Shown: positions 38,602-62,982 of the stretch, in pieces | Layout: each line of letters opens with the position of its first letter | Position numbering within the stretch: position 1 is the first letter of the stretch | Source of the DNA: Betaproteobacteria bacterium | GTDB lineage: Bacteria > Pseudomonadota > Gammaproteobacteria > Burkholderiales > Casimicrobiaceae | DNA: 64,000 nt | Reading direction: 5' to 3' | Assembly (NCBI GenBank): GCA_013298695.1 | Contig: JAAFIS010000009.1 | Coordinates: 1 to 64,000 of the forward strand | The notes under the pieces: generated by a model | Told to the model about the DNA's origin: nothing | What the model saw: the letters and a program-made list of their open reading frames with translations, nothing else | Database searches by the model: none | Translations under genes and position numbers: made by a program

Positions 38602-40578
38602 ATGGAACACAGTAGTAAGCGTATCGGATTGATTCTGTGGTGTTTGGTTGCTGGAGTCGGCACGTCGGGCGCTGCGTTCGCAGCTAATTGTCCGTTAACG
38701 GTATCAGGCACCCCGCAGGCAACACTCACGGTTGACGGTGTTCTACTCGCTCGCTATGCACGCGGCATGCGAGGCACTGCGCTGACCGCTGGGCTTCGCC
38801 AGTCTCCGGCGCTGCCTTCAACGGTGGAGGCATCTATTGATGCCGCAAAAACCGCGCTTGACGTGGATGACGATGGCGCGTTCACACTGACTGACGCATT
38901 GATTCTTGCGCGCTCAATGGCGGGGATACCTTCAAGTAGTTGGACTGTCGGGATTACTTTCTCAGCGAACGCTAGGCGCACACAGTTTGATGCGATTGCT
39001 GCATACATAGCCGCAGGTTGCGGCTTGGGCAACGTCATTAGCCGAGAGGACGCCTCCCGATTCCTGTCGCACGCAACATTCGGAGCCACTGAGAGCGAAA
39101 TCTCAGCGCTAACCGGTGGGTCATACACCGATTGGTTGAGGCGCCAATTTCAGATTCCGCCAACGTCGTACTTCGAAGCAATCCAACAAATTCAAAACAG
39201 CGGCGAAAACATCAATACAGGTCTGAGCTTTTTCATTGGTCAGTGGTGGAAACAAGCAGTGACAGGGCCAGACCAGTTGCGCCAACGGATGACTTTTGCG
39301 CTTTCTCAAATCTACGTCGTTAACGCTGATGGCGTCGGCCAATACAACGGTGGCGCTGCCGCCTACTACGACACCTTAAACCGTAACGCGTTCGGAAATT
39401 TCCGCTCACTTTTGGAGGAGGTAAGCAAAAGCTGGCAGATGGGCATCTACCTCACTCATATGGGTAACGTGAAAGAAAACCCGGCAACGGGTCAGACGCC
39501 TGATGAGAACTATGCGCGCGAGATCATGCAGCTATTCACAATTGGACTGTGGGAGCTCAACCGCGACGGTACTCAGAAACTTGACCTACAGGGCAATCCG
39601 ATTTCAACCTATACGCAAGACGAAATCCGTGGGACTGCAAAAGTCTTTACTGGTTGGGTAAGTCCGGTCTGCAATGGCCAACTTGGCTGCATACGGGGAA
39701 TTGGCTGGAACACGACTGCGGATTTGAGTCTGCCGCTCCAGCTTTACTCTGATTTGCACTCTAGCGCCGCGAAACGCATTGTGGGTGGTACGACGTTGCC
39801 TGCTAATCAGACTCCCGAAAAAGACTTGGCAGACACACTTGACGCCCTGTTTAACCACGCCAACTTTTGCCCGTACATTGGAAAACAACTCATTCAACGG
39901 TTTACCACTAGCAATCCGTCGCGAGACTACGTAACCCGCGTGACCGCAGCGTGTGAAAACAACGGCGCTTCGATTCGTGGAGACATGAAAGCAATGCTGA
40001 GCGCGGTTTTGTTGGATCCCGACGCGCGCCTGTACGCGCAGGTATCACGAGACGAGTGGGGAAAGCTGCGCGAGCCGGTAGTCAAGTTTGCCCAGTTTCT
40101 GAGGGTGTTTACGCAGTCGACTCCAAGCGCGAGATTCATGATCGGTGCAACAAATCAGGTTGATGACGGTTTCATGCAAACCGTTTTGATGTCGCCGAGC
40201 GTCTTCAACTTTTATCGTTTCAATTATTCACCTCAATCCATAGCGGCACGAGGACTGGTCGCGCCGGAATTTCAAATTACCAATGAAGGATCAGTCGTGG
40301 GGAATCACAACTACATGGAGCCTCGCATTAAGTGGCCCGATTGGCTACCCGAGGGCACGACGCACAATTACACGACCTGGGACAACTTGGCTCGCACCGA
40401 TCCCGTCGCTTTCATTGATCGGCTCGATCTGGTGCTGAACGCATCGCGAAGCTCCTCAATTACTCGAAAAGCGCTTTCTGACATGGTAGGGAGACTACCC
40501 GCCACTAACCCACGCAAACGTGTGACCGACGCGCTGCATGTTTATTTTCTTGCGCCCGACTATCTGGTGCAACGCTAG
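38602..40578 (+). CDS. DUF1800 protein with N-terminal dockerin-like module (pair A, arm I)
   Basis: 658 residues from the ATG at 38602; an upstream TTG would add six. Sec signal peptide ending AAFA. The dockerin-like module covers residues 30-142: CPLTVSG, TLTVDGVLLARYARGMRG, calcium loop D87-V-D-D-D91-G...D98, then ALILARSMAGIP and closing AAGC. DUF1800 follows with EDASRFLSHATFGATESEIS, LRQRMTFALSQIYVV, PDENYAREIMQLFTIGLWEL and LIQRFTTSNPSRDYV. DUF1800 proteins have no proven function and nearly always sit next to DUF1501 proteins, as here (10 bp apart). Confidence 0.88.
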   Translation: MEHSSKRIGLILWCLVAGVGTSGAAFAANCPLTVSGTPQATLTVDGVLLARYARGMRGTALTAGLRQSPALPSTVEASIDAAKTALDVDDDGAFTLTDALILARSMAGIPSSSWTVGITFSANARRTQFDAIAAYIAAGCGLGNVISREDASRFLSHATFGATESEISALTGGSYTDWLRRQFQIPPTSYFEAIQQIQNSGENINTGLSFFIGQWWKQAVTGPDQLRQRMTFALSQIYVVNADGVGQYNGGAAAYYDTLNRNAFGNFRSLLEEVSKSWQMGIYLTHMGNVKENPATGQTPDENYAREIMQLFTIGLWELNRDGTQKLDLQGNPISTYTQDEIRGTAKVFTGWVSPVCNGQLGCIRGIGWNTTADLSLPLQLYSDLHSSAAKRIVGGTTLPANQTPEKDLADTLDALFNHANFCPYIGKQLIQRFTTSNPSRDYVTRVTAACENNGASIRGDMKAMLSAVLLDPDARLYAQVSRDEWGKLREPVVKFAQFLRVFTQSTPSARFMIGATNQVDDGFMQTVLMSPSVFNFYRFNYSPQSIAARGLVAPEFQITNEGSVVGNHNYMEPRIKWPDWLPEGTTHNYTTWDNLARTDPVAFIDRLDLVLNASRSSSITRKALSDMVGRLPATNPRKRVTDALHVYFLAPDYLVQR

Positions 40579-40588
40579 GACACCGACG

Positions 40589-41989
40589 ATGAGGCAAGCA
40601 TTCCCGTTAAACGCGATTACAGATCTACCGCTCTCGCCTGCGCGCCGCAAACTAATCATGGGTTCGACTGCAATGGCGGTTCGAGGCGCGGGGACATTCG
40701 CGCTTGCCCTGCAAGGCGCTACCGCGCTTGCGCAAACCTCTTCAGATTACAAGGCGTTAGTGTGCGTTTTTTTGTATGGTGGAAACGACCACGGCAATAC
40801 TGTGGTTCCCTACGGAACTGCCGAATACAACCGATATGTTGATGGTCGTGGTGGACTCGCGCGCGCACGCGTTGATTTGCAGCCGATTTCAGCTGCCTCG
40901 TTGGTCAACCAGCAAATCTCTTTGCCGGTCGAACTCAATGGACTGAAGCAGCTGTATGACGCAGGAAAACTCGCAATACTGGGCAACGTGGGCGTCCTGT
41001 CGTACCCGGTAAGCAAATCACAGGTATTGAACGGAACGGTTGAATTGCCGCCTCAGCTTCGATCGCATGTCGACCACCAGGACTTTTGGCAATCAGGCGT
41101 GCCGTCTTACAGCGTCGCTACGGGGTGGGCAGGTCGATTAGCCGACTTGGTCGCTACTTCAAATGTGGGGAGCGTTGTTCCTTCGGTACTTTCGCTGTCG
41201 GGCACCAATCGGTGGCAGATCGGTAACCAAGCGTTCCCATTCTCTCTGTCGCTCGATGGTGCATCGACAATGTCTACACAGACGGACGCAACCCGGGGTC
41301 CTGCGCTCGCTTCGATCTTGGCGCAGGGACGATCACATCCGATGGAGGCTGAATTGACGCGCATCTACACGCGCTCCGCCGCCGCAAGTAGCGCAATCAC
41401 AGCGAGTCTAGGCGCAGCGCCTAATGTCGACGGCTATTGGGCGGGCGTTTCTGCTGCAAATAATCTCGCAGCACAACTCAAAGTAGTGGCTCGGCTAATT
41501 GCAGTTCGGAGCCAGCTCGGTCAACGGCGACAGGTCTACTTCGTGAGTGCTGGTGGTTTCGACAACCATAGTGACCTTGAGCTGCACGCGCGGCTGTTGA
41601 AAGGCGTTAGTGATGCGTTGGTGGGCTTCCAGACCGCGGTTGAGGCGCTCGGCGTAAGCCGGAATGTCACCACGTTTACCGCGAGCGATTTCGGTCGTCG
41701 TCTCATGACTAATGGCGGCGGTTCTGACCACGGTTGGGGCGGCCACCACTTCATCATGGGTGGTTCGGTCAATGGAGGCAACGTTTATGGGAAGTTTCCA
41801 GTTATCGCACGAAACGGTCCTGACGACTATTACGAAGGTGTGCTAATCCCGACCACATCCATAGATGAATACGGTTCTACGCTTGCACGCTGGTTCGGCG
41901 TAGATGACCGAGACCTGCCTGTGGTTATGCCAAACATCGGGCGCTTTTCTACAACTGATCTCGGATTCATGAGACGTGACACAGTTTGA
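40589..41989 (+). CDS. DUF1501 protein, Tat-exported (pair A, arm I)
   Basis: 466 residues from the ATG at 40589. Tat signal SPARRKLIMGSTAMAVRGAG. The DUF1501 core shows DYKALVCVFLYGGNDHGNTVVPY, SAGGFDNHSDLELHARLL, TFTASDFGRRLMTNGGGSDHGWGGHHF and, at the end, PNIGRFSTTDLGFM. The family is related in fold to alkaline phosphatases and sulfatases, so a metal-dependent hydrolase is possible. It lacks the dockerin-like module that its DUF1800 partner has. Most similar in the window to the product at 56792. Confidence 0.9.
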   Translation: MRQAFPLNAITDLPLSPARRKLIMGSTAMAVRGAGTFALALQGATALAQTSSDYKALVCVFLYGGNDHGNTVVPYGTAEYNRYVDGRGGLARARVDLQPISAASLVNQQISLPVELNGLKQLYDAGKLAILGNVGVLSYPVSKSQVLNGTVELPPQLRSHVDHQDFWQSGVPSYSVATGWAGRLADLVATSNVGSVVPSVLSLSGTNRWQIGNQAFPFSLSLDGASTMSTQTDATRGPALASILAQGRSHPMEAELTRIYTRSAAASSAITASLGAAPNVDGYWAGVSAANNLAAQLKVVARLIAVRSQLGQRRQVYFVSAGGFDNHSDLELHARLLKGVSDALVGFQTAVEALGVSRNVTTFTASDFGRRLMTNGGGSDHGWGGHHFIMGGSVNGGNVYGKFPVIARNGPDDYYEGVLIPTTSIDEYGSTLARWFGVDDRDLPVVMPNIGRFSTTDLGFMRRDTV

Positions 41990-42324
41990 CGCGAGGAAAC
42001 ATGCTTTGGGTCGAACGTTAGTCTGCTACAAGTGTTTGCACTCTCTAGCCAGGTCGCGCGTCTCACGTTCCGCGCACAACAATCCTAACTCAAACTTCGC
42101 GGGCTACTTTGAGAAGTTTTTCGGGAATGGATATGAAAGCGATTCAAAACGAGACACACAAATCTATTGCCACCGCTTTGGCCAAGGTGTCGTTCTGGCG
42201 CTGGGTTTGCGCCTTTGGAACGACCGCAAGCGCCGCGACTGCTGCTGGAATGAGTTTGCGCACGAGAGCGTAGGAGCGCTAACGCCGTGACCGACATTGA
42301 GTTTGAACTAACGCGGACGAAAAG
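41990..42324. other. 335-bp gap with a possible signal-peptide relic
   Basis: A 46-codon frame (42133-42273) reads MKAIQNETHKSIATALAKVS then FWRWVCAFGTTASAATAAG and stops. The end resembles the signal-peptide cleavage region ATASAAT of the gene at 58431. It may be the truncated start of a lost module-bearing gene. Nothing else is supported. Confidence 0.35.
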
Positions 42325-44544
42325 ATGATCACCGACAAATCAAGTGTCTCGCGCTCCCGCGTCTTAGCGGTTGCATCAATGGTCGTCTGTTCGTTGCACT
42401 TAGAGCCTGCAACCGCGGCGACAAACTGTCCGTTGAGCGTATCAGGCGCCTCGCAGGCAACACTCACGGTCGACGGCGTTTTACTCACGCGCTATGCACG
42501 CGGAATGCGAGGCGCTGCACTCACCGCAGAGCTTCGCCCGTCGCCCGCGCTACCTTCGACAGTGGAGGCATCCATCGATGCCGCTAAAACAGCGCTCGAT
42601 GTTGACGACGATGGCGCATTCACGCCAACGGATGCATTGATTCTTGCACGCTCGATGGCGGGGATGCCTTCGATTGCGTGGACCTCAGGCATTACTTTCG
42701 GTGCCACGGCCAAACGCACTGATGCCAATCTCATCGCTCAGTACGTTGCGTCGGGTTGCGCGATCACGGGCGCAGGCACGATCGCATTGGGCAGCAACAG
42801 CGAAGGCACCGGCACCGACACGATCACAGATTCCACTGGAGCCTATATCAATGCCAATCGCTTTCAAGCCCAGTCGTCGCTGACGGTCACCACGCTTTAC
42901 GCAAAAGTGGCGGCCATCAGCGGTAAGTATCAGATGGCGCTTTACGAAGACGCCAGCGGTAGTCCTGGAGCGCTCCTCACCTCCAGCGTCGAAGTTACAC
43001 CGAGCACGACCGGCTGGCATAGATTTGCACTCAAGACACCGCTCGCGGTCACGGCAGGAACATCCTATTGGCTTTCGATTTGGTCGAATGATTCGGCGGC
43101 GCGCGTGTATTCGAGTAGTGGCGGAACACTACGCTGGGGGAAATACGCCTACAGTACAACTTGGCCAACGGCTGTTGTGCTGAATAGTGGTGGCGCATTT
43201 ACATACTCGATGTATGCGAGTGACGGCGCACCACTGCCGGTATCGAGCGCCAACGTAGTGGTCTCGGGCAACACACAGTATCAGCGCATCGTCGGCATGG
43301 GTGCCAACGCCAACTCAAATGCCTGGGAGAACGGCGCCTTGAGGCCAGCACTCGATAAGCTCATCGACGAGGGCGGTGTTTCGATGTGGCGTGTGATCGT
43401 GGAGTCGCACGAAGGCTGGGAAACCAGCAACGATGACAACGATCCGTTCAACTTCAACTGGAGCTACTACAACGCGCTCTACGAAACGCCCAAGTTCCAA
43501 AGCCTTTGGGCTGTTCTCGATCACCTAAAGGCGCGCAACGCGCCCTACATTCTGCTCAACGTAATGGGCGAGGTGCCGCAGTGGATGGGGCGCAACGCCA
43601 TCAGTACCAACCGGGAAGACGAGTGGGTCGAGTTGATCACTTCGATGCTGGTGTATGCCCGCAGCACAAAACAGCTGCGTATCGATGCAATTTCGCCAAT
43701 GAACGAGCAGGATCTCGGCGCGCCCGAAGGGCCGGGCGTTAACGCTACGCAGTACGTGCGGTTGATGAACAAGCTGCGTGTGCGCATGGATGCGCTGGGC
43801 TTGGGTGATATCAGGTTCTACGGACCTGAGACCGCGAACGTGAGCCAAGGCGTCAACACGTACATGCCAGCGATGCTGGCGGACGCCAATCTAATGGCAC
43901 GAGTTGCCGGGTTTGCGCTACACGACTACAGCGGCGGCAGCGGCGGCGCGGCAGATCGTATTCGTAATTCATCATATCCTGACCGACCGTTTGTCATGAC
44001 CGAGTTCTCCGCGTGGTGCAGCGGCTGTGACACCGGTGCTCCACAGCCCACTGATTTTGATTTCGCGACCACTACCGGCCTGTACGTGATGCGACATCTT
44101 GGTGATGGTGCTGCGGGCACGCTGGTGTACGACGCCTACGATAGCTATTACGAACATCATGGCTCCATAGGTTATTGGGGACTGCTCGGCCGTAACACTG
44201 ACGGAACCTATTTCGCGCGCAAGCGGATGCAAGTGCTGGCGCAGTTCTCGCGCTACATCCGGCCCGGTGCCACACGGGTAGCCGTGTCAAGTCAAGTCAG
44301 TGGCGTGTCGGCACTGGCCTTCACGAGCGGCGGACCAACCGCGTTAGTCGCGGGCTACAACAGCAACGGTAGCAGCGTTGATTTGACGATCCGATTCGAC
44401 AACACGAGCTCAATCAGCACTGCAAGACTGATCCAAACCTCGTCGAGCAAGGATCAGGAGACGAGCGCACCGATCACGGTGAGCAACAACAATTTGAGCG
44501 TGCGCGTCGATGCCAACAGTTTCTTTACGGTGGTAGCGCAATGA
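42325..44544 (+). CDS. Secreted glycoside hydrolase (clan GH-A type) with dockerin-like module
   Basis: 739 residues. Signal peptide to about 32. Dockerin-like module 35-146 with calcium loop D92-V-D-D-D96-G...D103. A beta-sandwich of about 150 residues follows (LYAKVAAISGKYQMALYEDA, GTSYWLSIWSND), perhaps carbohydrate-binding. Residues 310-640 form a TIM-barrel-like domain: QRIVGMGANANSNAW at the start, the putative acid/base Glu461 in SPMNEQD and nucleophile Glu560 in FVMTEFSAWC. A beta-strand C-terminal domain closes it. This resembles GH30/GH39/GH5-like glucanases or xylanases; family and substrate are uncertain. Start ATG at 42325, no better alternative. Confidence 0.8.
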   Translation: MITDKSSVSRSRVLAVASMVVCSLHLEPATAATNCPLSVSGASQATLTVDGVLLTRYARGMRGAALTAELRPSPALPSTVEASIDAAKTALDVDDDGAFTPTDALILARSMAGMPSIAWTSGITFGATAKRTDANLIAQYVASGCAITGAGTIALGSNSEGTGTDTITDSTGAYINANRFQAQSSLTVTTLYAKVAAISGKYQMALYEDASGSPGALLTSSVEVTPSTTGWHRFALKTPLAVTAGTSYWLSIWSNDSAARVYSSSGGTLRWGKYAYSTTWPTAVVLNSGGAFTYSMYASDGAPLPVSSANVVVSGNTQYQRIVGMGANANSNAWENGALRPALDKLIDEGGVSMWRVIVESHEGWETSNDDNDPFNFNWSYYNALYETPKFQSLWAVLDHLKARNAPYILLNVMGEVPQWMGRNAISTNREDEWVELITSMLVYARSTKQLRIDAISPMNEQDLGAPEGPGVNATQYVRLMNKLRVRMDALGLGDIRFYGPETANVSQGVNTYMPAMLADANLMARVAGFALHDYSGGSGGAADRIRNSSYPDRPFVMTEFSAWCSGCDTGAPQPTDFDFATTTGLYVMRHLGDGAAGTLVYDAYDSYYEHHGSIGYWGLLGRNTDGTYFARKRMQVLAQFSRYIRPGATRVAVSSQVSGVSALAFTSGGPTALVAGYNSNGSSVDLTIRFDNTSSISTARLIQTSSSKDQETSAPITVSNNNLSVRVDANSFFTVVAQ

Positions 44545-44578
44545 CCGACTTATCGTTGCATTCCGAGGCGGATTGAAG

Positions 44579-47359
44579 ATGCAAATTTCACTATCGAAAT
44601 ACTGGTGCGCCGTCGTGTTTACGGTCGCCGTCAAAGCTGCTGTTGCTGCAACCAGCTGCCCGACGGCTGTGTCGGGTGCCACCGCCGCGACACTTACGGT
44701 TGATGGCGTTCTTCTCGCGCGCTACGCCTTAGGTATGCGTGGTTCGGCCCTCACCGCAGGCATTCGAAATTCTCCTTCGCTGCCGACCACAGTCGAATCG
44801 TCAATTGCTGCCGCAAAAACCGCGCTTGACGTCGACGACGACGGTGCGTTCACGCCGACTGACGCATTGATTCTTGCGCGTTCGATGGCGGGGATGCCTT
44901 CGACTGCGTGGACCGCAGGCATTAGTTTCGGTGCAGCGGCGAAGCGCACCGACGCCAATCTCATCGCACAGTACATCGCAGCTGGCTGTGTTGCCGTGAG
45001 TGCAGGCACGGTCGTCATTGGCGCGACCGTGATTGGACAAATCAACTACACCCTATCGAAATCGGGACGTATCTCGCTCGCAATCTACGACACGAGTGGG
45101 CAAATGGTGCGTACGCTGCTCAACGCCGCGCCGCGCAATGCGGGCGCAAATAGCGAGACTTGGGATGGCAAGGACGATGCGGGTGCAGCACTCCCTGCAG
45201 GACAAACCTACACGGTCAAGATTTTGATGACGCAGGGTTTGCGCGCGGAATACTTGATGACGTTGCAAACCACGCTGCCGACGGGGCAAGGTTGGGTTGA
45301 TCGGGAACTGGCGCTTGGGAATCATGACGGACCGACTTCAGTGGCCGTAGATAACAGTGGTATTTATCTTGGCACAGGTGGCGCGGAGAACATTGCCAAC
45401 GCGATGAAGATGACCTGGGACGGCAGCAAGCGACTATGGAGCGCGAACCAACCTGCGGTTTGGATGGGGCGACACGCTATGGCGGTCATGGGTGGCAGGC
45501 TGTATGCGTTGCAGCAAGATGGCTGGGTCATCCACCAAGGTGTCGACGAACCCAACTGGCCGTGGTCATCTGTGGGAGCGGCGAGCAACGGTGACTTTAT
45601 TGGGAGCCGGTGGGATGCGTTATGGCCTGGCGCACCTCGCCCTGGATCTGACGACTACCGAGATAGCCCGGCATTGCAAATGAACATGGATCTGGCGGCC
45701 CACGACAACGGCAACAACCCGCAACTCGTCATCACCCACCGCGACCAAAACACCGTGCAGTGGCGCAACCCCGCTACCGGTGCGGTGGTCGACAGCGTCA
45801 GCATCCCAGCTCCTATGGGCGTTGCTTTTGATGCACAGGGCAATGTGCTTGTTGCTACGCAAGATCGCATCGTACGTGTGTCGCGCACCAACAAAACGCC
45901 GCAAGTGCTGGTCTCCGGACTGATTGGCCCCTACCGCATCGACGTTGATCGCGCCAACAACGACGAGTTTGTGGTGGCCGAGCGCAGCGCGAGCCAGCAG
46001 GTCAAACGCTTCAGCGCCGTGGGCGCGTTGCTTGCGACTTATGGCCGATCGGGTGGGCGTTTAGATGGCGTGTATGTTGACAAAGACTTCCGCAATATCA
46101 CCGACGTTACGAGCGATCAACAGGGCGGATTTTTCGTCACCGAGCGTTCTGCGCCGAGACGCGTGGCGCGTTTTGATCGTGCCGGTAACGTGGTGAAGGA
46201 GTGGTATGCCGGTTCCCATTGGTCGCCCATTGCCACGCCCGAACCGGGCAATCCGAACGTCGTGTGGATGCAATCTGAACACAACGAATATGTACGTGCC
46301 GAGCTCGATTACGCCAGCCGCAGCTGGCGGGTGCACTCTACCTATCGGATTAGAAGAGCCGACGGGTCGTTGATCTGGAGCTTGGGTACGGGTATTGATG
46401 TGCTGAAACCCCGACGCGTTAACGGCAAGCTCTATTTGGCCGGTGATGGGATGAACGGCGAGTTCACGCTATGGAGCGTGGATGAAGCGCAGTGGAGCGT
46501 TCGCCCAATCGCGGCAGCGGCTTTTCAGGCTGACACCTCGAATCTATGGTTGTGGGCCGATTCCGATGGCGACGGGTTTGCGCAACCCAACGAATATCGG
46601 CGCTTCAGTGAAAACTTTTACGGCTATAACGCGCTGGGTTTGCGCAGCGACGCGGGGCTTAACTACTATGCTCACAATGTCGGTGGCAGCGTGATCAAAA
46701 TCAAAGTGACGGGTTGGAACGCGATTGGCGCGCCCATCTACGAGCCCATTCAATCTACGAGCTTGATGAAATGGGTTTCGATGCCCAGCGAATTACTTAA
46801 GCCGAACGGAGAAAGTAACAACTATGGATCAGCGCATCCGTTGGCGTTCGCGAGCAATGGTGATGTCTACGGAACTTTCGGTGTGGGTGATCGCGGATGG
46901 AGTGCCGTCGACGCCGGGCTGGTCGTGCGCTGGGATGCAACAGGCAAACTGCTCTGGAATCGGAAGCTGGGTGTGAGCGGTTCGTACTACGACAACAATC
47001 ATACCCACGTGCCCGGTGTGAACATGTGGTCGACTTTCAAAAATAACGTGGGTATCGTCTACAACGCCGTGGTCGCGCAAGATTTCAATGGTGGCAATAA
47101 CGGTTACGCGGGCCAAAACATCAGCTATGTGTGGAACGACGACGGATTGTTCGTTGGTGGGCTTTTTGATGCGATAGACACGACCAAAGTCACCGCGCGG
47201 TACTACAACCTAAGCAGCGAGAACGGTGCTGGAGCCATCGTCGAGGATTCCGATGGCAGTGCGCTTTATTTTGGAGGAACGGAAGCGGCAAACCATGTGT
47301 ATCGCATTCGTGGATGGAATGAATTTGCGCGCTCGAGCGGTCAGGTTCGCGCGCCGTAA
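44579..47359 (+). CDS. Secreted beta-propeller protein with dockerin-like module and FlgD-like Ig domain
   Basis: 926 residues from the ATG at 44579, with GAGG ten bases upstream; a TTG start would add two. Signal peptide to about 24. Dockerin-like module 27-138 with loop D84-V-D-D-D88-G...D95. Residues 150-240 are a FlgD-type Ig domain (ISLAIYDTSGQMVRTLLNAA, SETWDGKDDAGAALPAGQTY). The remainder looks like an NHL/six-bladed propeller (GPTSVAVDNSGIYLGTGG, GVAFDAQGNVLVATQDRIVR, GPYRIDVDRANNDEFVVAER). No catalytic site is recognised. It follows the glycosidase gene by 34 bp and is probably cotranscribed. Confidence 0.78.
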   Translation: MQISLSKYWCAVVFTVAVKAAVAATSCPTAVSGATAATLTVDGVLLARYALGMRGSALTAGIRNSPSLPTTVESSIAAAKTALDVDDDGAFTPTDALILARSMAGMPSTAWTAGISFGAAAKRTDANLIAQYIAAGCVAVSAGTVVIGATVIGQINYTLSKSGRISLAIYDTSGQMVRTLLNAAPRNAGANSETWDGKDDAGAALPAGQTYTVKILMTQGLRAEYLMTLQTTLPTGQGWVDRELALGNHDGPTSVAVDNSGIYLGTGGAENIANAMKMTWDGSKRLWSANQPAVWMGRHAMAVMGGRLYALQQDGWVIHQGVDEPNWPWSSVGAASNGDFIGSRWDALWPGAPRPGSDDYRDSPALQMNMDLAAHDNGNNPQLVITHRDQNTVQWRNPATGAVVDSVSIPAPMGVAFDAQGNVLVATQDRIVRVSRTNKTPQVLVSGLIGPYRIDVDRANNDEFVVAERSASQQVKRFSAVGALLATYGRSGGRLDGVYVDKDFRNITDVTSDQQGGFFVTERSAPRRVARFDRAGNVVKEWYAGSHWSPIATPEPGNPNVVWMQSEHNEYVRAELDYASRSWRVHSTYRIRRADGSLIWSLGTGIDVLKPRRVNGKLYLAGDGMNGEFTLWSVDEAQWSVRPIAAAAFQADTSNLWLWADSDGDGFAQPNEYRRFSENFYGYNALGLRSDAGLNYYAHNVGGSVIKIKVTGWNAIGAPIYEPIQSTSLMKWVSMPSELLKPNGESNNYGSAHPLAFASNGDVYGTFGVGDRGWSAVDAGLVVRWDATGKLLWNRKLGVSGSYYDNNHTHVPGVNMWSTFKNNVGIVYNAVVAQDFNGGNNGYAGQNISYVWNDDGLFVGGLFDAIDTTKVTARYYNLSSENGAGAIVEDSDGSALYFGGTEAANHVYRIRGWNEFARSSGQVRAP

Positions 47360-47443
47360 CCATTGCTCCGGCTTCAACGCTACGAACGACAAAGTGACTC
47401 CAAACGGATCAAAATTTTCAGCGTGCTGACAAGGGAATTGTGG

Positions 47444-49513: not shown

Positions 49514-49526
49514 GAGCGGCCGCGTG

Positions 49527-51014: not shown

Positions 51015-51054
51015 GACGTCCGTCGGCGTTGATACGCGTTAGTCAACCTAGCTA

Positions 51055-53139: not shown

Positions 53140-53227
53140 AAAACTAGGGTGATTTTGGGTTGGCGGGTCAAGTGGGATGAATTTAAAAAAAATGTCGGCG
53201 TTCGAGCAAGTGTCGAAGGGAGGATCG

Positions 53228-54598: not shown

Positions 54599-54666
54599 TT
54601 GACACGCGGTACTTCGAATTGCGCGGTGTTACGAGCTACGGTTATAGCGGTTGTATTTGCTTGCGT

Positions 54667-54686
54667 ACCTAGTCGACAGGCTAGGT
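54667..54686. promoter_or_regulatory. Lux-box-like 20-bp palindrome before arm II
   Basis: ACCTAGTCGACAGGCTAGGT: six-base arms ACCTAG/CTAGGT around eight bases, between the LuxR-type gene and the divergent DUF1800 gene. It matches the inverted sequence of the element at 38385-38404 in 18 of 20 bases. Both are followed by AAAAAATG...GCATAT. Confidence 0.7.
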
Positions 54687-54786
54687 CGACAAAAAAATGT
54701 CAATGGCATATTATGTTTGGAATCGTTGCGAGCATGCTTTGCACAGCTCGACGGCGCACGTTTTGTTATTTTGAAGCGGAAACAGC

Positions 54787-56781
54787 ATGAAGTCGATCCA
54801 GCTTGCAGCGAATTGCCGCCTCTTTGCGCGCGTTTTGTTTGTATCGCTTGCAGTTCGCGGGGCCGAGGTCGCCGCAGCGTGCCCTCTTAACGTTTCGGGC
54901 TTGCCTTCGGCCCGCCTTACGGTTGATGGCGTTTTGCTTGCGCGTTACGCGCTTGGTTTGCGTGGCGCGCCGCTTACATCCGGCGTTGCGCCGTCGGGTG
55001 TTATCGCAGCGAACGCTGAGGCGAATATTGCCAACGCGGAACTGGCGCTCGATATCGACGGCGATGGAAGCTTCACGAGAACCGATGCGATCGTCGTAGC
55101 ACGGTCACTTGCTGGGATGCCGCCTTCAAGTTGGTTTAACGGCATCACGCCAGGGCCGCTCGCGACGCGCAAGAGCCCCGCCGAGGCGCTTTCACATTTC
55201 AACGCCGGTTGTCCGCCCGCACTTTCTCCCACGCGTGCACAGGCGTCGCGCTTTCTCGCGCAGGCAACATTCGGAGGTACTCGCGCAGACATCACCGCCT
55301 TGACGCAATCCAATTATTCGGCGTGGATCAATTCGCAGTTCACCAAGCCGCTTACCAGCCACGTGGCGTTGGTAGATGATCTCGTCAATCGCTTTTATGG
55401 CGGCAACGATAGCCAGGGCCCGCTAGCAAACGTGGAATCCGTGTTTCGTCAGGGAGCCTATGGTGAGGATCAGTTACGTCAGCGAATGGCCTGGGCGTTA
55501 TCGCAAATTTTTGTGATCGGCGATTCGACGACGCCACGCGATTCGAGCATTGGAAGTCATTATCTCGACGCGTTGAATCGCAATGCGTTCGGCAACTACC
55601 GGCAATTGCTGGAAGAGATTTCGCTGTCGAGCTCGATGGGACTCTACCTAAGGCATATGGGTAATGAGAAAGAAGATCCCGCGACGGGGCGCTTGCCTGA
55701 CGAGAACTATGCGCGCGAAATCATGCAGCTTTTCACGATTGGGTTGTGGGAGCTCAATGCTGACGGCACACGAAAATTGGATGTGATGGGCAACCCGATT
55801 CCGACCTACGGGCAGGACGATATTCGCGGGTTGGCGAAGGTATTTACCGGCTTTACTTATTCGCGGTGTTTGACCGCAAGTAATCCCGGCATTTGTCTCT
55901 ATGGTTCTCGACTCGGTTGGAGCCCGGAGCCAACGATGGTTCCCGACGCACGGTATCACTCGAATAGTGAGAAGCGTTTTTTGGGACGCACGCTGGCCGC
56001 GAACCGAACCGCGACACAGGATTTGAAGGATGCGCTGGATACGCTGTTTACGCATCCGAATACCGGCCCGTTTGTAAGTCGCCAGCTGATCCAGAGGTTC
56101 ACAACGAGCAATCCTTCGCCTGCCTACGTTAAACGCGTCGCCGATGTGTTTGCCAACAACGGAAGCGGTGTACGCGGTGACCTAAAAGCTGTCTTACGCG
56201 CGATCTTGCTCGATCCTGATGCACGAGATGCCACGCGAATTGCCAGCGATCCAAACTGGGGAAAAGTGCGCGAACCCGTCGTGCGATGGATGAATTTCCT
56301 GCGTACGTTTACGCGCGCTAACGGCGAAGGTCGCGCCTACTACGATTTCAACCGAATGACGCCCGCGTTTGCTCAGTGGCCGATGGGTGCGCCGAGTATT
56401 TTCAATTTTTATCGACCGACCTACGCGCCGCCCGGCCCGATTAAATCCGCGGGGCTCGCTGCACCCGAGTTTCAGATCACCCACGAACACACGATAGCCG
56501 CGACTCACAATGAATTTCACTTGTGGGCAAGCTTTAATTCTGACGGATCCTACGGTAGCCATTCCGATGATTACGCGTGGCTTGTCAATCTCGCGGGAAC
56601 AGCCGAGCAGATGGTGGATGAACTCGATATTGTGCTGACCCACGGAACCTTGAGCGCTACCAGTCGTGCTGCGATGGTTGAAGCAATCAACGCAGTACCG
56701 TCCTATCTCGGCAACCTCGGCCGAGCCAAACTCGCATTGAAGCTGTTCTTTGTGTCGCCTGACTACTTGGTTTTGAAATGA
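54787..56781 (+). CDS. DUF1800 protein with N-terminal dockerin-like module (pair A, arm II)
   Basis: 664 residues. The signal peptide ends around VAAA before CPLNVSG. Module residues 31-144, loop D88-I-D-G-D92-G...D99, closing NAGC. DUF1800 blocks: TRAQASRFLAQATFGGTRAD, LRQRMAWALSQIFVIGD, LNRNAFGNYRQLLEEISLSS, PDENYAREIMQLFTIGLWEL, LIQRFTTSNPSPAYVKRVAD. It shares with the gene at 38602 the RNAFGN(F/Y)R and (I/L)QRFTTSNPS forms, as well as length, which groups them as subtype A. Confidence 0.88.
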   Translation: MKSIQLAANCRLFARVLFVSLAVRGAEVAAACPLNVSGLPSARLTVDGVLLARYALGLRGAPLTSGVAPSGVIAANAEANIANAELALDIDGDGSFTRTDAIVVARSLAGMPPSSWFNGITPGPLATRKSPAEALSHFNAGCPPALSPTRAQASRFLAQATFGGTRADITALTQSNYSAWINSQFTKPLTSHVALVDDLVNRFYGGNDSQGPLANVESVFRQGAYGEDQLRQRMAWALSQIFVIGDSTTPRDSSIGSHYLDALNRNAFGNYRQLLEEISLSSSMGLYLRHMGNEKEDPATGRLPDENYAREIMQLFTIGLWELNADGTRKLDVMGNPIPTYGQDDIRGLAKVFTGFTYSRCLTASNPGICLYGSRLGWSPEPTMVPDARYHSNSEKRFLGRTLAANRTATQDLKDALDTLFTHPNTGPFVSRQLIQRFTTSNPSPAYVKRVADVFANNGSGVRGDLKAVLRAILLDPDARDATRIASDPNWGKVREPVVRWMNFLRTFTRANGEGRAYYDFNRMTPAFAQWPMGAPSIFNFYRPTYAPPGPIKSAGLAAPEFQITHEHTIAATHNEFHLWASFNSDGSYGSHSDDYAWLVNLAGTAEQMVDELDIVLTHGTLSATSRAAMVEAINAVPSYLGNLGRAKLALKLFFVSPDYLVLK

Positions 56782-56791
56782 GAGCGAAGCC

Positions 56792-58234
56792 ATGAAGCAT
56801 CTAATCGAAAACGATTGCCTCTCACTTCCGCGCCGGAAGTTGCTCGCCGGATCAGTAGGTTGGGCGGCGGCGAGTGCGGGCGGTTTCGCTCTCAACTTGC
56901 AAACTATTGCGGCGGCTGCGTCACCGACGCCCACCGACTACAAAGCATTGGTGTGTATCTTTCTGTTCGGAGGCAACGACAGCGGGAACACGTTGGTTCC
57001 GTATGACACGACCGAATACAACCGTTATCTCACAGCGCGTGAAGGTTCGACCAGTCGACCGTACGGCGTGACGCGTCTGCGAACAGATTTGCTTCCAATT
57101 ACAACCGCGTCGGTGACCGATGGCCGCAGCTTCGCACTTCCGAAAGAGATGAGTGCGCTCAAAGCACTCTACGATTCTGGCAAAGCTGCGGTGATTGCCA
57201 ACGTCGGCATGCTCTCAGCAGTGACCACGCGTGCGCAGATGGATGCGGGCTCAGTTGAGTTGCCGCCGCAACTCTTTTCGCATTCTGATCAAGCGACTTT
57301 TTGGCAAGCGGGGGTGCCGTCGTACACGACATCTACCGGTTGGGGCGGGCGCGTGGTTGATGCACTTGCGGCGGCGAATGCGGGCGGCCGCGTTTCAGCC
57401 TCCGTGTCTATCGCGGGAACGAATTTGTGGCAAGTTGGCAATCAGGTAATCCCGTTTCCCATCGACGCGGAGGACGGTGCAACCGGTCTCTACAGCATGG
57501 AAGAGGCTGCGTATAGTCGTGCAATGAACGCGATGCTCGCGGCAAATCGGAACAACATATTTGAGCGCGAGATTGTGCGCGTTTATAAGCGCTCAATTGC
57601 TGGCACGCAAGCCGTAGCAGATGCGCTGCTCGAAAACAATTCTCTCGACGCTCAATTTCCTCGCAGCGCGCCGCCTGAAGTGCCGGGGCCTGCGCGCGGT
57701 TGGCATGCAAGTTTGATGTCGCAACTGTCGACGGTTGCTCGAATGATTGCTGCGCGCAATTTACTCGGCATGAGGCGGCAAACTTTCTTTGTGAGCATTG
57801 GTGGCTTTGATATGCACAATAGCCTTGAATACCATCGTTTCGCGTTGCAAGCGATCAGCGACGCAATGGCCAAGTTCTACACCGTGACCGATTCGCTTGG
57901 CATTGCGAATAAGGTAACCACCTTCACCGCAAGCGACTTCGGTCGCCCTCTGCAAATTAACGGCACGGGTTCCGATCACGGCTGGGGCGCACATCACTTA
58001 GTGGTGGGCGGCGACGTCAACGGCGGAAACCTGTACGGTCAATTTCCCAACATGCTCACCAGCGGACAAAACTACACCGGAAATCAAGGGCATTTGATTC
58101 CTTCGACCAGTGTCGATCAATACGCCGCGACGATGGCGAAGTGGTTCGGTGTGTCGAACGATGACATGACGATCGCGCTGCCCAATATTGGACGGTTTCC
58201 CACGCGTGATCTTGGTTTCATGAGAACGACGTAG
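56792..58234 (+). CDS. DUF1501 protein, Tat-exported (pair A, arm II)
   Basis: 480 residues, starting 10 bp after the DUF1800 stop. Tat signal LPRRKLLAGSVGWAAASAGG. Motifs: DYKALVCIFLFGGNDSGNTLVPYDTTEYNRYL, SIGGFDMHNSLEYHRFALQA, TFTASDFGRPLQINGTGSDHGWGAHH and PNIGRFPTRDLGFMRTT. The last block and the EYNRY segment match the product at 40589 better than the B-type ones. Confidence 0.9.
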   Translation: MKHLIENDCLSLPRRKLLAGSVGWAAASAGGFALNLQTIAAAASPTPTDYKALVCIFLFGGNDSGNTLVPYDTTEYNRYLTAREGSTSRPYGVTRLRTDLLPITTASVTDGRSFALPKEMSALKALYDSGKAAVIANVGMLSAVTTRAQMDAGSVELPPQLFSHSDQATFWQAGVPSYTTSTGWGGRVVDALAAANAGGRVSASVSIAGTNLWQVGNQVIPFPIDAEDGATGLYSMEEAAYSRAMNAMLAANRNNIFEREIVRVYKRSIAGTQAVADALLENNSLDAQFPRSAPPEVPGPARGWHASLMSQLSTVARMIAARNLLGMRRQTFFVSIGGFDMHNSLEYHRFALQAISDAMAKFYTVTDSLGIANKVTTFTASDFGRPLQINGTGSDHGWGAHHLVVGGDVNGGNLYGQFPNMLTSGQNYTGNQGHLIPSTSVDQYAATMAKWFGVSNDDMTIALPNIGRFPTRDLGFMRTT

Positions 58235-58430
58235 GATACAGCCAGATCATCTAACTCCAGAATTCAGTGGGCGATACGCTCCGTAATACTAAAGAGCGAA
58301 ATACGTTGAAAAGCCTCGTGAGCCCTGCAAAGGCAGAAGAATTGAGAAAATGCTTATTCCCGAAAGTGTGCGAGCTAGCACCAAACTTTCTTCATCCTCA
58401 GAACGCTCAAGCGAACGCGGCAGGATTGGT

Positions 58431-60878
58431 GTGAAACAACTTTCTCAATATCGGGCGACGATTGCTGCTCTCCTGTTTTTCATCACAAGTGGTGCGACGG
58501 CAAGCGCGGCGACGTGCCCAGTTTCTGTTGCCGGAAACGCCGCTGCTACGTTAACCGTTGACGCGGTTTTGCTCACGCGGTATGCACTCGGGATTCGTGG
58601 TGACGAATTGACAGCAGCGCTTCGCACAGCGCCGCCGTTGCCCGCCACCGTTGAAACGAATATCTTGAACGCGCGACGCGCACTTGACGTCGATGGTGAC
58701 GGTGCGTTCACATCAACTGACGCCTTGATCCTCGCCCGATCGATAGCGGGTATGCCCTCTGCAAGTTGGCCGCTTGGGATTACGTTCGCAACAAACGCAA
58801 CGCGAAAGACCGGTGACGCGCTGCGCGACTATGTCAACGGCGGTTGTCTTATTCCAGGTACGCTGCTCGGCATTGAAACGCTCGCGAGCGATATTGATAC
58901 CAATACGGCGGGCAGCGCCGAAGCGTTTGTGTATACCGCGCTCGCAACCGGCACGGCAACCGAGCTTCGCTTGTATCTTGACGCAACAAATACCGCGACC
59001 ACCGTCGTTGCAGGCGTGTACGCAGATGGCAGCAATAGCCCAACGAATTTGCTCGCGAGCGGAACGATCAACGCGCCGCAATCCGCCGCGTGGAACAGTA
59101 TCGCGCTTAGCGGGCTCCCAATCACCCAAGGTCAGCGCTACTGGATCGCGCTCATGGCACCGGTCGGCGCGGGCGTGATCAAGTTTCGCGACACACCCGG
59201 TGGCGACACGGCGTGGGGCAGCAGCCAAACCAATCTTTCAACACTGCCTGCAACGTGGAGTACCGGCGCGAGCTACAACAGCTCACCGGCATCGGCGTAT
59301 CTCTACGGCAACGTTTCGTCATCGACCGGTTCCGGGCAAACGCCCGTGCCCGGCGCCACGCTTGATACGCATCAGGTCTATGTTGATAGCGGCGGCAAAC
59401 TTGTTTCATGGGTCACGCCGCTCGACAAAGCGTTTGATCGTGTGTCGTTTTTGTCGTGGGACTTTTTGCTCAATCGTGTTCCCAACGATCCGTCGAACAA
59501 TTTGCCAGTCATATTCACGCATTCGGAATACGATCCGGTGACGTTCGCAGGCAGCGGCTGGCCAAACAATCCTGCGGGCAAAAACGCAATGCTTGCCGAT
59601 GCGGCAACGCTTTACTACGCCTACTCCGGCAATCGCGGCGTGATTACGCTGGTGAGCACGCTGCTCGATCATCAACTGACTTTCGGCACGACACCAGCCA
59701 CTTATTCGTGGGCGAATGTGCCGTGGTCTACCGCTGCGGCGGGTTCGATCAACTATGGAAACGACAACATCGCCGAGGGTGTTGGCGTGCTGGAGCCCGA
59801 CAAAATTGGCGAACTCGGATATCACGGCTACCTGCGCATGTGGCAAATCACGGGGCTCACGCGCTACCGCGACGCTGCGATCACCTGCGCGAATGTGCTC
59901 GCCGCGAAGGTGCGCACAGGCAGCGCGAATCAATCACCGTGGCCCTATCGTGTGAACGCGCAAAGTGGCGCGGTGGTGGAGGAATACACCTCGCACGTGA
60001 TCGCGCCGATTCGATTGTTCGACGAATTGATTCGATTGAATCTTGGCAACGTCAGCGCCTATCAAACCGCGCGGGCAACCGCATGGACGTGGCTCATGAC
60101 GTATCCGATGGTCAACAACAACTGGAACCAGTATTTCGAGGACGTGCCGCCGCAGAGCAATCCGTTTTCAAATTTGAATCAGTACAACGCCGGGCAAACC
60201 GCGCGCTACCTGCTGGAGCGCCCCTCGCTTGATCCGAATAGTCAAACCAAAGCGGCGGCGCTACTCAACTGGGTCGAAAGCAATTTCGGCGGCACCGATT
60301 CCGGCGAAGCGGGTTTGCAATATGGCGCTCGCGTGATCTCTGAGCAATACATCTACGACTACAAAATGGCGAGCCACACCTCGCGCTTCGGTGCGATGAC
60401 CGCGCTCTATGCGGCAGCCGCGAACGATGCGGTTGCGAAAGACAAAGCCTATCGATCACTCACTTGGGCGACCTACATGGCGCGAAGCAGCGGCGCAGTA
60501 AACGAAGGCCCCGCAGAGTTCCAAGCGAATCGCTACTTCTGGTTTACCGACGGTCACGGCGACTATGTGCGCCACTTCATGCTCGCCATGGGCGCGTTTC
60601 CAGAATGGGCACCGAACGGCGAAAACCATTTCCTCAAATCAAGCTCAGTGGTCACCACGATTACGTACAGCGCCAACTTGATTACCTACGAAACATTCGA
60701 CAACGCCGCGATCGATATGTTGCGAGTCGTCGCGCCGCCAACACGCATCGAAGTCGATGGCGTGACGCTTGCACAGCGCACCGATTTGAGCGCGCCAGGT
60801 TGGACGTTTGATGCGGGCTCAGGCGTGTTGCGCGTTAGACGAGCTAGTGGGGCTCAAGTGAAAGTTGTATTGCCGTGA
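58431..60878 (+). CDS. Secreted helical-barrel protein with dockerin-like module and beta-sandwich
   Basis: 815 residues from the GTG at 58431, chosen because it has AGGA upstream and gives a normal signal peptide (KQLSQYRATIAALLFFITSGATASA); the ATG at 58350 would add 27 polar residues. Module 29-139 with loop D86-V-D-G-D90-G...D97. A beta-sandwich of about 150 residues (LRLYLDATNTATTVVAGVYA, GQRYWIALMAPVG) resembles that of the glycosidase at 42325. Then about 400 helical residues with paired-helix pattern (ELGYHGYLRMWQITGLTRYR, MASHTSRFGAMTALYAAAAN), like alpha/alpha-barrel carbohydrate enzymes, and a short beta C-terminus. Activity is unknown. Confidence 0.72.
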   Translation: MKQLSQYRATIAALLFFITSGATASAATCPVSVAGNAAATLTVDAVLLTRYALGIRGDELTAALRTAPPLPATVETNILNARRALDVDGDGAFTSTDALILARSIAGMPSASWPLGITFATNATRKTGDALRDYVNGGCLIPGTLLGIETLASDIDTNTAGSAEAFVYTALATGTATELRLYLDATNTATTVVAGVYADGSNSPTNLLASGTINAPQSAAWNSIALSGLPITQGQRYWIALMAPVGAGVIKFRDTPGGDTAWGSSQTNLSTLPATWSTGASYNSSPASAYLYGNVSSSTGSGQTPVPGATLDTHQVYVDSGGKLVSWVTPLDKAFDRVSFLSWDFLLNRVPNDPSNNLPVIFTHSEYDPVTFAGSGWPNNPAGKNAMLADAATLYYAYSGNRGVITLVSTLLDHQLTFGTTPATYSWANVPWSTAAAGSINYGNDNIAEGVGVLEPDKIGELGYHGYLRMWQITGLTRYRDAAITCANVLAAKVRTGSANQSPWPYRVNAQSGAVVEEYTSHVIAPIRLFDELIRLNLGNVSAYQTARATAWTWLMTYPMVNNNWNQYFEDVPPQSNPFSNLNQYNAGQTARYLLERPSLDPNSQTKAAALLNWVESNFGGTDSGEAGLQYGARVISEQYIYDYKMASHTSRFGAMTALYAAAANDAVAKDKAYRSLTWATYMARSSGAVNEGPAEFQANRYFWFTDGHGDYVRHFMLAMGAFPEWAPNGENHFLKSSSVVTTITYSANLITYETFDNAAIDMLRVVAPPTRIEVDGVTLAQRTDLSAPGWTFDAGSGVLRVRRASGAQVKVVLP

Positions 60879-60912
60879 GTTGCACTTTTCTCTCGAACTT
60901 CAGGTAACGAGT

Positions 60913-62982
60913 ATGCGGAAATTATCTATACACAGGTTGGTTGTTACAGCCGTAATTGCTTCGTCATCGCTTTTGACAGCAGCTTCTATCGCGGCGACGA
61001 GTTGCCCGACGGCGGTTTCCGGTGCGAGCGCAGCAACGCTAACGGTTGACGGTGTATTGCTGTCGCGCTTTGCGCTTGGTGTGCGCGGCGGCGCATTGGT
61101 TGCAGGTTTGCGCAACTCGCCGCCGCTACCCGCGACGGTGGAGGCATCAATTGACGCAGCGAAAACTGCGCTAGACGTTGATGACGACGGTGCGTTTACC
61201 GCCACGGATGCAGTCATCCTCGCGCGTTCAATGGCAGGTGTCGCTCCTAGCCAATTGGCTGTAGGAATCACCTTTGCTCAGTCTGCAAAACGAACTGACG
61301 CTAACGCAATCGCTCAGTACATCGCGAGCGGCTGTTCCGTGATAACCACCGCTGACGCAAACCGCTTCCTTGCGCAGTCGAGCTTCGGTGCCAAATCCGA
61401 TGCTGATGTCAGCCGAGTACGCGTACTTGGTTATTCAGGCTGGCTAGATGAACAGCTCGCGATGCCGGTAAAGTATTCGCACCTGACTCGCGTGAAGGCG
61501 ATGGCTGCAGGCTACGACGGACAATGGCAAAACCGACCCGGGGTTTGGGACATCAACGATTCGATGTGGATCGGTATGGTCGATAGCGACGATCAATTGC
61601 GGCAGCGGACCATGTTCGCGCTCACGCAGATTTTTGTTGTAAGTCTGAAAGACGGCGCGGTGTATTACCTCGGTAACGGGCTTGCTGCTTACGTTGACAT
61701 GCTCTACGCGAAAGGCTTTGGCAATTTCCGCGATTTGATCGAGGGTGTGACGAAAAGCACCGCGATGGGCTCTTATCTTTCGCACATCTATAACGAAAAG
61801 GAGGATCCGCTTTCGGGAAACGTGCCGGATCAAAACTACGCACGAGAAATCATGCAGCTGTTTACGATTGGGCTCTGGGAGCTCAACCTCGATGGCACTC
61901 GGAAGCTCGACGTAAATGGACGACCGATACCGACGTACGGGCAAGCAGACATCGTTGGTGCATCGCGCGTGCTCACTGGGTGGACGTTCGACCAAGCCAA
62001 TGCATCGCACTGGCAAAACTTCTACGGGTTTTGGAACTATCCGGACAACGCATCTCAAGAGCGGCCCATGAAAGCGTTTCCGCAGTACCACTCGACCTCG
62101 GAGAAAAAGTTCTTGGGTGTAACCATTCCTGCGTCAACAACATCCAACCCGGAAGCCGATCTAAAAATATTTTTGGACAGACTGCACGATCACCCCAACG
62201 TCGGCCCGTTCATTGGAAAGCAGCTCATCCAGCGTTTAGTGACGAGTAATCCGAGCCCTGCGTATGTCGCGCGGGTGGCCAGCGCATTTAACAACAACGG
62301 AAACGGCGTGCGTGGTGACATGAAAGCCGTGATTCGCGCGATCTTGTTGGACGTCGAAGCGCGCGATGCGAATCAAATCACAAATCCACAGTTTGGAAAG
62401 ATTCGCGAGCCGGTTGTTCGCATGGCCACGATGATGCGGTCGCTCGGCGCAACACGAGCCGCTGAGCCGAACTCATACGGCATCGGCCAATTTCTATACG
62501 ACAAGAGCAAAGCGCTTTGGCAAACACCGCTCGGCGCGAATACTGTCTTTAACTTCTATCGTCCCGATTTTCGCCCCGCCAATACCGACGTTGCGCGTGC
62601 AGGCCTCGTTGCGCCAGAAATGCAACTCATTACGCCATCGACGGTCGATGATATGCAGTGGTTCTTCCGCAACATTTTCGAGAACGCGGGCATCAGTAGT
62701 TGTTGCACTGTCGAGGAGAGAAACACATTTTTCCTAAAACTCGACTACGCGTCGCTGCTGCCATTGGTGTCGAATCCCGGCGCACTTGCTGATCGACTAA
62801 ACGCGCAGTTCATGGCAGGACAAATGTCCTCAGAGCTCCGCGCTAACGTGATTCAAGAAATCAATGATGAGTATCGAAGCGGTTCGCAAACGAGCGGCAT
62901 TCAGCGCGGCGTTACGCAAATGAAGCTAGCACGCGCGCTTTTCACCGTGCTGTTGTCTGCTGAATACGTGGTGCAGAAGTAA
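60913..62982 (+). CDS. DUF1800 protein with N-terminal dockerin-like module (pair B, arm II)
   Basis: 689 residues from the ATG at 60913. Signal peptide ending AASIAA. The module has CPTAVSG, ATLTVDGVLLSRFALGVRGG, loop D-V-D-D-D-G...D with AVILARSMAG, and closing SGC. DUF1800 blocks: TTADANRFLAQSSFGAKSDA, LRQRTMFALTQIFVVS, PDQNYAREIMQLFTIGLWEL (Q for the usual E), YHSTSEKKFLGVTIPA, GPFIGKQLIQRLVTSNPSP. The end LLSAEYVVQK matches the B-type gene at 47444. It follows the preceding gene by 34 bp. Confidence 0.88.
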   Translation: MRKLSIHRLVVTAVIASSSLLTAASIAATSCPTAVSGASAATLTVDGVLLSRFALGVRGGALVAGLRNSPPLPATVEASIDAAKTALDVDDDGAFTATDAVILARSMAGVAPSQLAVGITFAQSAKRTDANAIAQYIASGCSVITTADANRFLAQSSFGAKSDADVSRVRVLGYSGWLDEQLAMPVKYSHLTRVKAMAAGYDGQWQNRPGVWDINDSMWIGMVDSDDQLRQRTMFALTQIFVVSLKDGAVYYLGNGLAAYVDMLYAKGFGNFRDLIEGVTKSTAMGSYLSHIYNEKEDPLSGNVPDQNYAREIMQLFTIGLWELNLDGTRKLDVNGRPIPTYGQADIVGASRVLTGWTFDQANASHWQNFYGFWNYPDNASQERPMKAFPQYHSTSEKKFLGVTIPASTTSNPEADLKIFLDRLHDHPNVGPFIGKQLIQRLVTSNPSPAYVARVASAFNNNGNGVRGDMKAVIRAILLDVEARDANQITNPQFGKIREPVVRMATMMRSLGATRAAEPNSYGIGQFLYDKSKALWQTPLGANTVFNFYRPDFRPANTDVARAGLVAPEMQLITPSTVDDMQWFFRNIFENAGISSCCTVEERNTFFLKLDYASLLPLVSNPGALADRLNAQFMAGQMSSELRANVIQEINDEYRSGSQTSGIQRGVTQMKLARALFTVLLSAEYVVQK

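Follow-up and report, generated by a model that had tools for sequence, protein, structure and literature searches.

A dockerin-related terminal module on secreted proteins of a Casimicrobiaceae bacterium

A common module in the window

The stretch of DNA analyzed here (the window; 64,000 nucleotides at the start of contig JAAFIS010000009.1, assembly GCA_013298695.1) comes from a betaproteobacterium of the family Casimicrobiaceae and contains an island of eight genes for secreted proteins that share a module with a dockerin-like DxDxDG loop. A sequence-only reading of the island had described this module as an N-terminal, disulfide-clasped dockerin variant that tethers diverse domains to a common partner, an interpretation that our results support in part. 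The module recurs on about 100 proteins of the genome, and in one gene family of the genus it changes places with a canonical dockerin. We favor, at a probability of about 0.55, the interpretation of the module as an enlarged and diverged dockerin that serves exported proteins as a terminal docking tag.

All eight island genes are present at their expected positions (start codons checked), with gene 51055–53139 on the minus strand. In each of the eight proteins the module begins where the signal peptide ends. Counted from its first through its last cysteine, it is 111 residues long, except in the product of gene 51055 (114 residues). In the alignment of the eight, 25 columns do not vary, among them the CP start, DxDxDG, the two arginines, and the closing GC. 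A profile built from these eight sequences (A1) recovers them at E = 2.5e-50 to 8.5e-61. The Pfam family Dockerin_1 (PF00404) exceeds its cut-off in one of the eight proteins, that of gene 58431 (23.0 versus 22.9 bits), stays below it in six, and gives no match at all in the 51055 protein. The sequence-only reading had reported the module on the eight island proteins and had overlooked a ninth copy in the same window (Table 1).

Table 1. Modules and adjoining genes in the window
Feature	Position	Strand	Description
Module 1	38689..39021	+	on DUF1800 protein, gene 38602-40578
Module 2	42427..42759	+	on GH30-like protein, gene 42325-44544; passenger matches xylanase XynC model far below cut-off
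Module 3	44657..44989	+	on FlgD-Ig protein, gene 44579-47359; NHL match below cut-off
Module 4	47564..47896	+	on DUF1800 protein, gene 47444-49513
Module 5	52654..52995	-	most diverged, 114 residues; gene 51055-53139, CxxCH motif by eye, no Pfam match
Module 6	54880..55212	+	on DUF1800 protein, gene 54787-56781
Module 7	58515..58847	+	gene 58431-60878; sole one of the eight above Dockerin_1 cut-off
Module 8	61003..61335	+	on DUF1800 protein, gene 60913-62982
Ninth module	17586..17885	-	extra CxxC; on DUF7452 protein, gene 16608-18170
DUF1501 open frame	40538..41989	+	adjoins DUF1800-module gene; no module seen
DUF1501 gene	49527..51014	+	adjoins DUF1800-module gene; no module seen
DUF1501 gene	56792..58234	+	adjoins DUF1800-module gene; no module seen
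DUF1501 gene	62996..64000	+	adjoins DUF1800-module gene; truncated by window end; no module seen
TPR + LuxR-type regulator	53228..54598	-	upstream of module-5 gene, same strand

Distribution, placement, and passengers

The eight-module profile was run on the host genome (4,076,941 bases, 22 contigs) and on relatives, the check that the sequence-only reading had proposed. It matches 103 places in the host at E ≤ 0.01, 95 of them beyond the eight, whereas 42 of 43 relatives outside the genus gave no match at E ≤ 0.001 and the remaining one matches at E = 2.1e-4. These genome-wide matches refute a restriction of the module to the island, and the 95 further places set against the 42 empty relatives reject chance or composition as their source. 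Among the places fetched, 102 open frames carry the module (six run off the stretch or contig and six are shorter than 170 residues). In 24 of these it is N-terminal (N-type), and in 78 it is C-terminal (C-type), which we define as lying within 80 residues of the protein end; all 78 C-type modules end 1–13 residues before the stop. The N-terminal position is therefore correct for the eight but is the minority form genome-wide. Dockerin_1 matches at E ≤ 0.01 in at most two of the 78 C-type proteins, as judged from its absence among the families listed.

Two further profiles represent the 60-residue repeat unit (A5, the unit profile) and 20 aligned modules, eight from the window and 12 from loci of relatives (A4). 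The unit profile matches in all 17 genomes of the genus at E ≤ 0.001, at least 1,177 times in total. The host accounts for at least 149 matches, from 150 scored candidates of 235, and the other 16 genomes for 11 to 105 apiece; scoring stopped at 150 candidates in eight of the 17, where the counts are lower bounds. Some of these matches may be canonical dockerins because the unit profile also recognizes ordinary dockerin F-hands. In a survey of 368 other genomes of the class, four are matched by the unit profile (E ≤ 1e-4, up to 17 candidates scored per genome) and four by the 20-module profile (E ≤ 1e-3, up to 12 per genome); the match covers most of a unit in only two of the genomes (G133 and G299), and a loop-helix or a short stretch in the rest. 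The records with relatives of the module (11 loci) are metagenome-assembled genomes (MAGs) of Burkholderiales or Betaproteobacteria, Pseudomonadales, Gammaproteobacteria, and unplaced proteobacterial MAGs, and three of the loci (L127, L128, and L129) have module sequences identical to those of genus genomes. A Pseudomonadales MAG (L133, 5929–8529, plus strand) encodes a trypsin-like protease with an N-terminal tandem module in which both loops are intact; the N-terminal form therefore extends beyond the genus. No such module is described in the titles and abstract openings of the literature searched, a search outside which subscription papers mostly fell.

Unrelated passengers share the module, in agreement with the diverse domains noted previously. 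The 24 N-type proteins carry DUF1800 (seven), G8/CEMIP (two), S74 (two), and other families once each. Among the first 25 families listed for the 78 C-type proteins are delta-60/DUF5122 propellers (26–28), PD40 (nine), RCC1 (eight), reprolysin-like proteins (three), and subtilases (two). In the island the module evolves separately from its passenger and under purifying selection. The unrelated passengers of genes 42325 and 44579 carry modules that are 82% identical, and the module of one DUF1800 protein is 80% and 76% identical to those of two non-DUF1800 neighbors, versus 62, 53, and 72% to those of three DUF1800 proteins. The ratio of nonsynonymous to synonymous substitution rates (dN/dS) is 0.08–0.22 in the 12 of 21 pairs of seven window modules with an estimable dS, several dS values being above 1.5. 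Seven of the ten host DUF1800 genes (12 matches, two genes being split) carry the module. In eight module-less DUF1800 proteins picked by hand (three from the host, five from other genera), the same slot holds DUF5648 (three), FG-GAP (one), TIG (one), or nothing named (three). Neighboring paralogous beta-propeller genes, most of them with a C-terminal module of a single repeat unit, are seen in L105 (1–10000) and L074/L075, on host contigs C9 and C1.

Anatomy of the repeat unit and kinship to dockerins

The repeat unit spans about 55–60 residues and consists of a DxDxDG loop, a helix ending in R18 and a glycine, a linker, and a second helix. By the unit model, whose counts may miss diverged second units, two units are present in 22 of the 24 N-type and 30 of the 78 C-type proteins, and one unit in two N-type and 48 C-type proteins. 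The first half had been described as the second half without its calcium loop, and both the double match of the unit profile in N-type proteins and relatives with an intact first loop, some of them with two intact loops, agree with this description. The loss is not complete: the first loop of the eight window modules is degenerate, positions 1 and 3 being free of acidic residues, but two of the eight keep an asparagine at position 1. Two calcium-competent motifs, as expected of a type I dockerin, thus appear to be lacking in the window modules. Among loops with an intact pattern, the length is 12 residues in 18 of 20 N-type and 13 residues in 67 of 71 C-type cases.

Conservation was followed across the genus in 48 different N-type modules (21 from the host, 27 from other genomes), selected because the profile covers them nearly in full. 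Both units of all 48 have R18. At position 12, unit 1 has aspartate (44) or glutamate (four), and unit 2 always has aspartate (48). Unit 1 further has aspartate or asparagine at position 1 in 34 modules, but aspartate at position 3 in only three. The closing cysteine is invariant, and an extra CxxC precedes the second loop in 12. Across the 102 host modules the terminal cysteines occur together: 75 have both, 25 neither, and two the last only, and both of these discordant modules do have an upstream cysteine, just outside the searched stretch. An exact test on this co-occurrence gives 8e-22, a value that ignores kinship and is indicative only. The pair is also kept in 37 of the 48 single-unit C-type forms. 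It is this co-occurrence that argues for the disulfide clasp of the sequence-only reading.

Dockerin kinship, as claimed previously, is borne out by the PDB sequences, among which the best matches of the unit profile are type I dockerins (CelS, endoglucanase SS, xylanase Y, and others; whole-sequence E = 8e-7 to 5e-6). Calmodulins rank behind them at E of about 0.01, and a calmodulin-like EF-hand was rejected because the profile places dockerins well ahead. The matched PDB entries 8x39 and 8x3a are presumably the double dockerin dDoc_0689, to which we return below. The alignments span the F-hand only (22–28 residues), and the significance of the dockerin matches comes from summed repeats because single stretches of the four best reach E = 0.02–1.3 only. 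The module therefore contains a dockerin-type F-hand, a 12-residue loop and helix with sequence homology to dockerins, from which the 13-residue loops of the C-type depart. The kinship is to the F-hand of dockerins and not to the whole solved dockerin fold.

The AlphaFold2 model of the 20 aligned modules (predicted local distance difference test, pLDDT, 95.8; predicted template modeling score 0.88) has longer helices at residues 14–25, 47–58, 68–78, and 101–109. A relative with both loops intact (A6) was modeled with a pLDDT of 95.3. A helix is predicted after the loop region in each half, consistent with the F-hand pair expected by the sequence-only reading, although the first loop is degenerate. 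Viral structures gave no significant match.

Type I dockerins are domains of 60–70 residues. The module resembles them in its F-hand loop-helix (DxDxDG...D12 and R18), its internal duplication, and its many secreted fusions. It differs in that its unit has 55–60 residues rather than about 22 and an extra helix, in that the two-unit module has about 111 residues versus 60–71 in the dockerin chains matched in the PDB, and in its cysteine pair, the degenerate first loop of the window form, and the mostly 13-residue loops of the C-terminal form. Furthermore, no cohesin exceeds the Pfam cut-off in the genus, and one window protein in eight exceeds that of Dockerin_1. Of the proposed duplication "as in dockerins", the internal repeat stands and the size of the unit does not; likewise, the designation as a dockerin variant holds for sequence kinship but needs amending for the size (about twice that of a dockerin), the extra helices, the number of units (one or two), and the PDB comparison, which gave no significant structural match. 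The module is thus not a type I dockerin by membership, because of its size, its fold, its degenerate or single loop, and the absence of cohesin; by function, it likely works like one.

Exchange with a canonical dockerin, candidate receptors, and function

A sub-threshold cohesin match (E = 0.0127) in the genus belongs to a protein that comprises a signal peptide, a domain of about 190 residues (A8), and a tandem module. A profile of two such domains (A7) finds the family in 11 of the 17 genus genomes, with one convincing match each (E ≤ 3.3e-18; two further matches at 0.05–0.06 were set aside); the host copy lies at C1:443203–443715. All 11 members are fused to a dockerin or to the module. 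The C-terminal slot is occupied by the tandem module in five proteins (L204–L207 and L211) and by a canonical dockerin in six (L208, 32.3 bits; L210, 25.2; L222, 24.5; L212, 23.8; L209, 23.4; cut-off 22.9; and L213, below it at 17.7). The A8 domain of L207 (module) has its nearest relative in that of L208 (dockerin), at 79% identity. The A8 domains of the module-bearing L204–L206 are mutually 70–76% identical, and that of L211, also with the module, is 48–55% identical to dockerin-bearing members and 35–36% to L204–L206. Judged by identity, the module-bearing members do not form one clade. The module and a canonical dockerin are interchanged in the architecture of this family, and we regard this exchange as the strongest sign of a dockerin-like job. 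It also offers a concrete route to ask whether cohesin-free dockerins use other receptors.

A long frame on the same strand follows the A8 gene in all 11 loci, and the host frame ends in IPTL-CTERM (26.2 versus 20.8 bits). The upstream neighbor is a single-unit-module protein, beta-helix-like by eye, in six of the 11; that of the host (C1, about 439,902–442,436) has no Pfam match and is additional to the 102 frames.

On the docking interpretation, the dockerin-type F-hand of each unit, whose loop and helix keep D12 and R18, would bind calcium; a second helical segment comes after it, and a disulfide between the first and last cysteines would close the one or two units in most copies. The tag sits at one extreme end of the protein, either at the C-terminus itself or immediately behind the signal peptide, and after export it would bring a wide variety of extracellular proteins to one shared receptor or scaffold.

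Several observations weigh against this interpretation. The 48 C-type proteins with one detected unit would be unable, alone, to form a dockerin-like F-hand pair, and 25 of the 102 modules lack the clasp cysteines. By a crude signal-peptide rule, 80 of 102 module frames qualify, as do 81 of 152 control frames, a margin from which the export of every member does not follow. The single F-hand stretches match dockerins with the modest E-values given above, and among the 40 and 27 PDB matches listed by Foldseek for two models, none reaches E ≤ 0.001. The only dockerins that appear are of Clostridium acetobutylicum (CaDoc0917), at E = 2.0, 8.2, and 7.8 with template modeling (TM) scores (target) of 0.41, 0.48, and 0.43; with TM(target) of at most 0.48 and 111–114 residues, the module does not have the solved compact dockerin fold of about 60–70 residues.

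The search for a receptor weighs in the same direction. Cohesins have a jelly-roll fold. The earlier remark that no cohesin is visible in the window extends to the genus: PF00963 exceeds the Pfam cut-off in none of the 17 genomes and gives sub-threshold matches (E ≤ 1) in four. The A8 domain is a weakly cohesin-like candidate partner only. For two of the 11 members, Pfam names Cohesin and no other family, in alignments that span almost the whole model (E = 0.0094 and 0.09); the better score is 16.6 bits against a cut-off of 24.1. Cohesin is not named for the nine others, the host copy included. The A8 profile has no match in the PDB at E ≤ 10. In hhalign comparisons, which used shallow alignments of 2–10 rows, its probability against three cohesins of the same order (above the Pfam cut-off) is 1%, and the N-terminal domains of the A8-neighbor gene (A10 and A11) reach 2% and 0.2%; A8 matches neither A11 nor the module. 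The domain was not found in six of the 17 genomes, one of which is 98% complete and has 83 unit matches. The absence of cohesin and the patchy occurrence of A8 are the strongest signs of another receptor or of a function other than docking. Elsewhere in the same order, a secretin-like protein (L221, 1547–3943, minus strand; GspD/MSHA type by eye) has a C-terminal domain above the Cohesin cut-off (E = 7.6e-10) and is possibly a cohesin on an outer-membrane channel.

One report describes the hypothetical planctosome of freshwater Planctomycetes, a non-cellulosomal cohesin/dockerin system with dockerins on extracellular peptidases rather than cellulases (PMC6461901); cohesin domains are reported there, whereas none exceeds the Pfam cut-off in the module genus. 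The double dockerin dDoc_0689 of a Clostridium thermocellum S8 protease is likewise an enlarged dockerin assembly, with a reported intramolecular clasp in the first dockerin (PMC12484212), but it consists of two dockerins with four loop matches in the PDB chain, and the module has two loops at most. About 100 proteins of one Gram-negative bacterium with one interchangeable terminal tag, mostly missed by Pfam, may point to a docking or sorting system not known so far. If the module is a true docking tag, it would reveal a system of extracellular assembly beyond the cellulosomes. A receptor would then await discovery, and the two might serve protein engineering as a new pair. We entertain only tentatively the extension that the genus docks its whole secretome through an enlarged, clasped one-or-two-unit dockerin on a receptor that is no recognized cohesin, with the A8 protein, next to the IPTL-CTERM protein in the host, as an envelope adaptor.

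The main rival, because the host has type II secretin matches and no exosortase or rhombosortase match, is that the module is an export or sorting signal read by type II secretion or by a surface-sorting enzyme. PEP-CTERM, GlyGly-CTERM, and Por secretion tails are likewise one tag on the ends of diverse exported proteins, and they have a known or presumed processing enzyme. Placement is strictly terminal in about 100 frames, passengers match the NCBIfam families choice_anch_I (two of 78) and rhom_dep_M36 (two of 78), named for anchor choice and rhombosortase dependence, and the host has two type II secretin matches above cut-off. Exosortase is found in none of the 17 genus genomes and rhombosortase gave no match in the host, a gap that the module might fill; such enzyme absence is only consistent with a replacement, which we rejected as a proven cause. 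The known signals are, however, short and C-terminal, whereas the module is a folded domain of about 110 residues found at either end and, in one gene family, alternates with a canonical dockerin, and we consider a sorting role unlikely.

Decidedly less plausible is a calcium-dependent stabilizing cap that only folds and protects the ends of extracellular proteins and has no partner. The terminal position, the calcium loop, and the cysteine pair, retained in most single-unit C-type forms, are compatible with a cap, but it poorly explains R18 in the degenerate first unit (which could be structural), the strong conservation on unrelated passengers, or the exchange with a dockerin. Least probable of all is a true cohesin–dockerin system in which A8 is a diverged cohesin, its protein an adaptor scaffoldin, and the IPTL-CTERM neighbor a membrane anchor, since the one convincing match in each of 11 genomes, the two Cohesin assignments, and the constant fusion and following frame are countered by the nine unnamed members, the negative hhalign and PDB profile searches, and the six genomes in which A8 was not found, and A8 may be merely another passenger.

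In the island, the DUF1501 genes that lie 3′ of the four DUF1800-module genes encode an N-terminus that looks twin-arginine-like by eye, and they lack the module; the module provides a handle on these DUF1800/DUF1501 gene pairs, whose function is unknown according to the Pfam listing. The TPR and LuxR-type regulator may control the module-5 gene or the island; the longest frame of the module-5 gene overlaps it by a few bases and the frame from the first ATG does not. Next to the ninth-module gene, a G+C-rich stretch (0.61–0.64) encodes a large protein (18205–21411, minus strand) in which DUF7948 is combined with SBBP propeller repeats.

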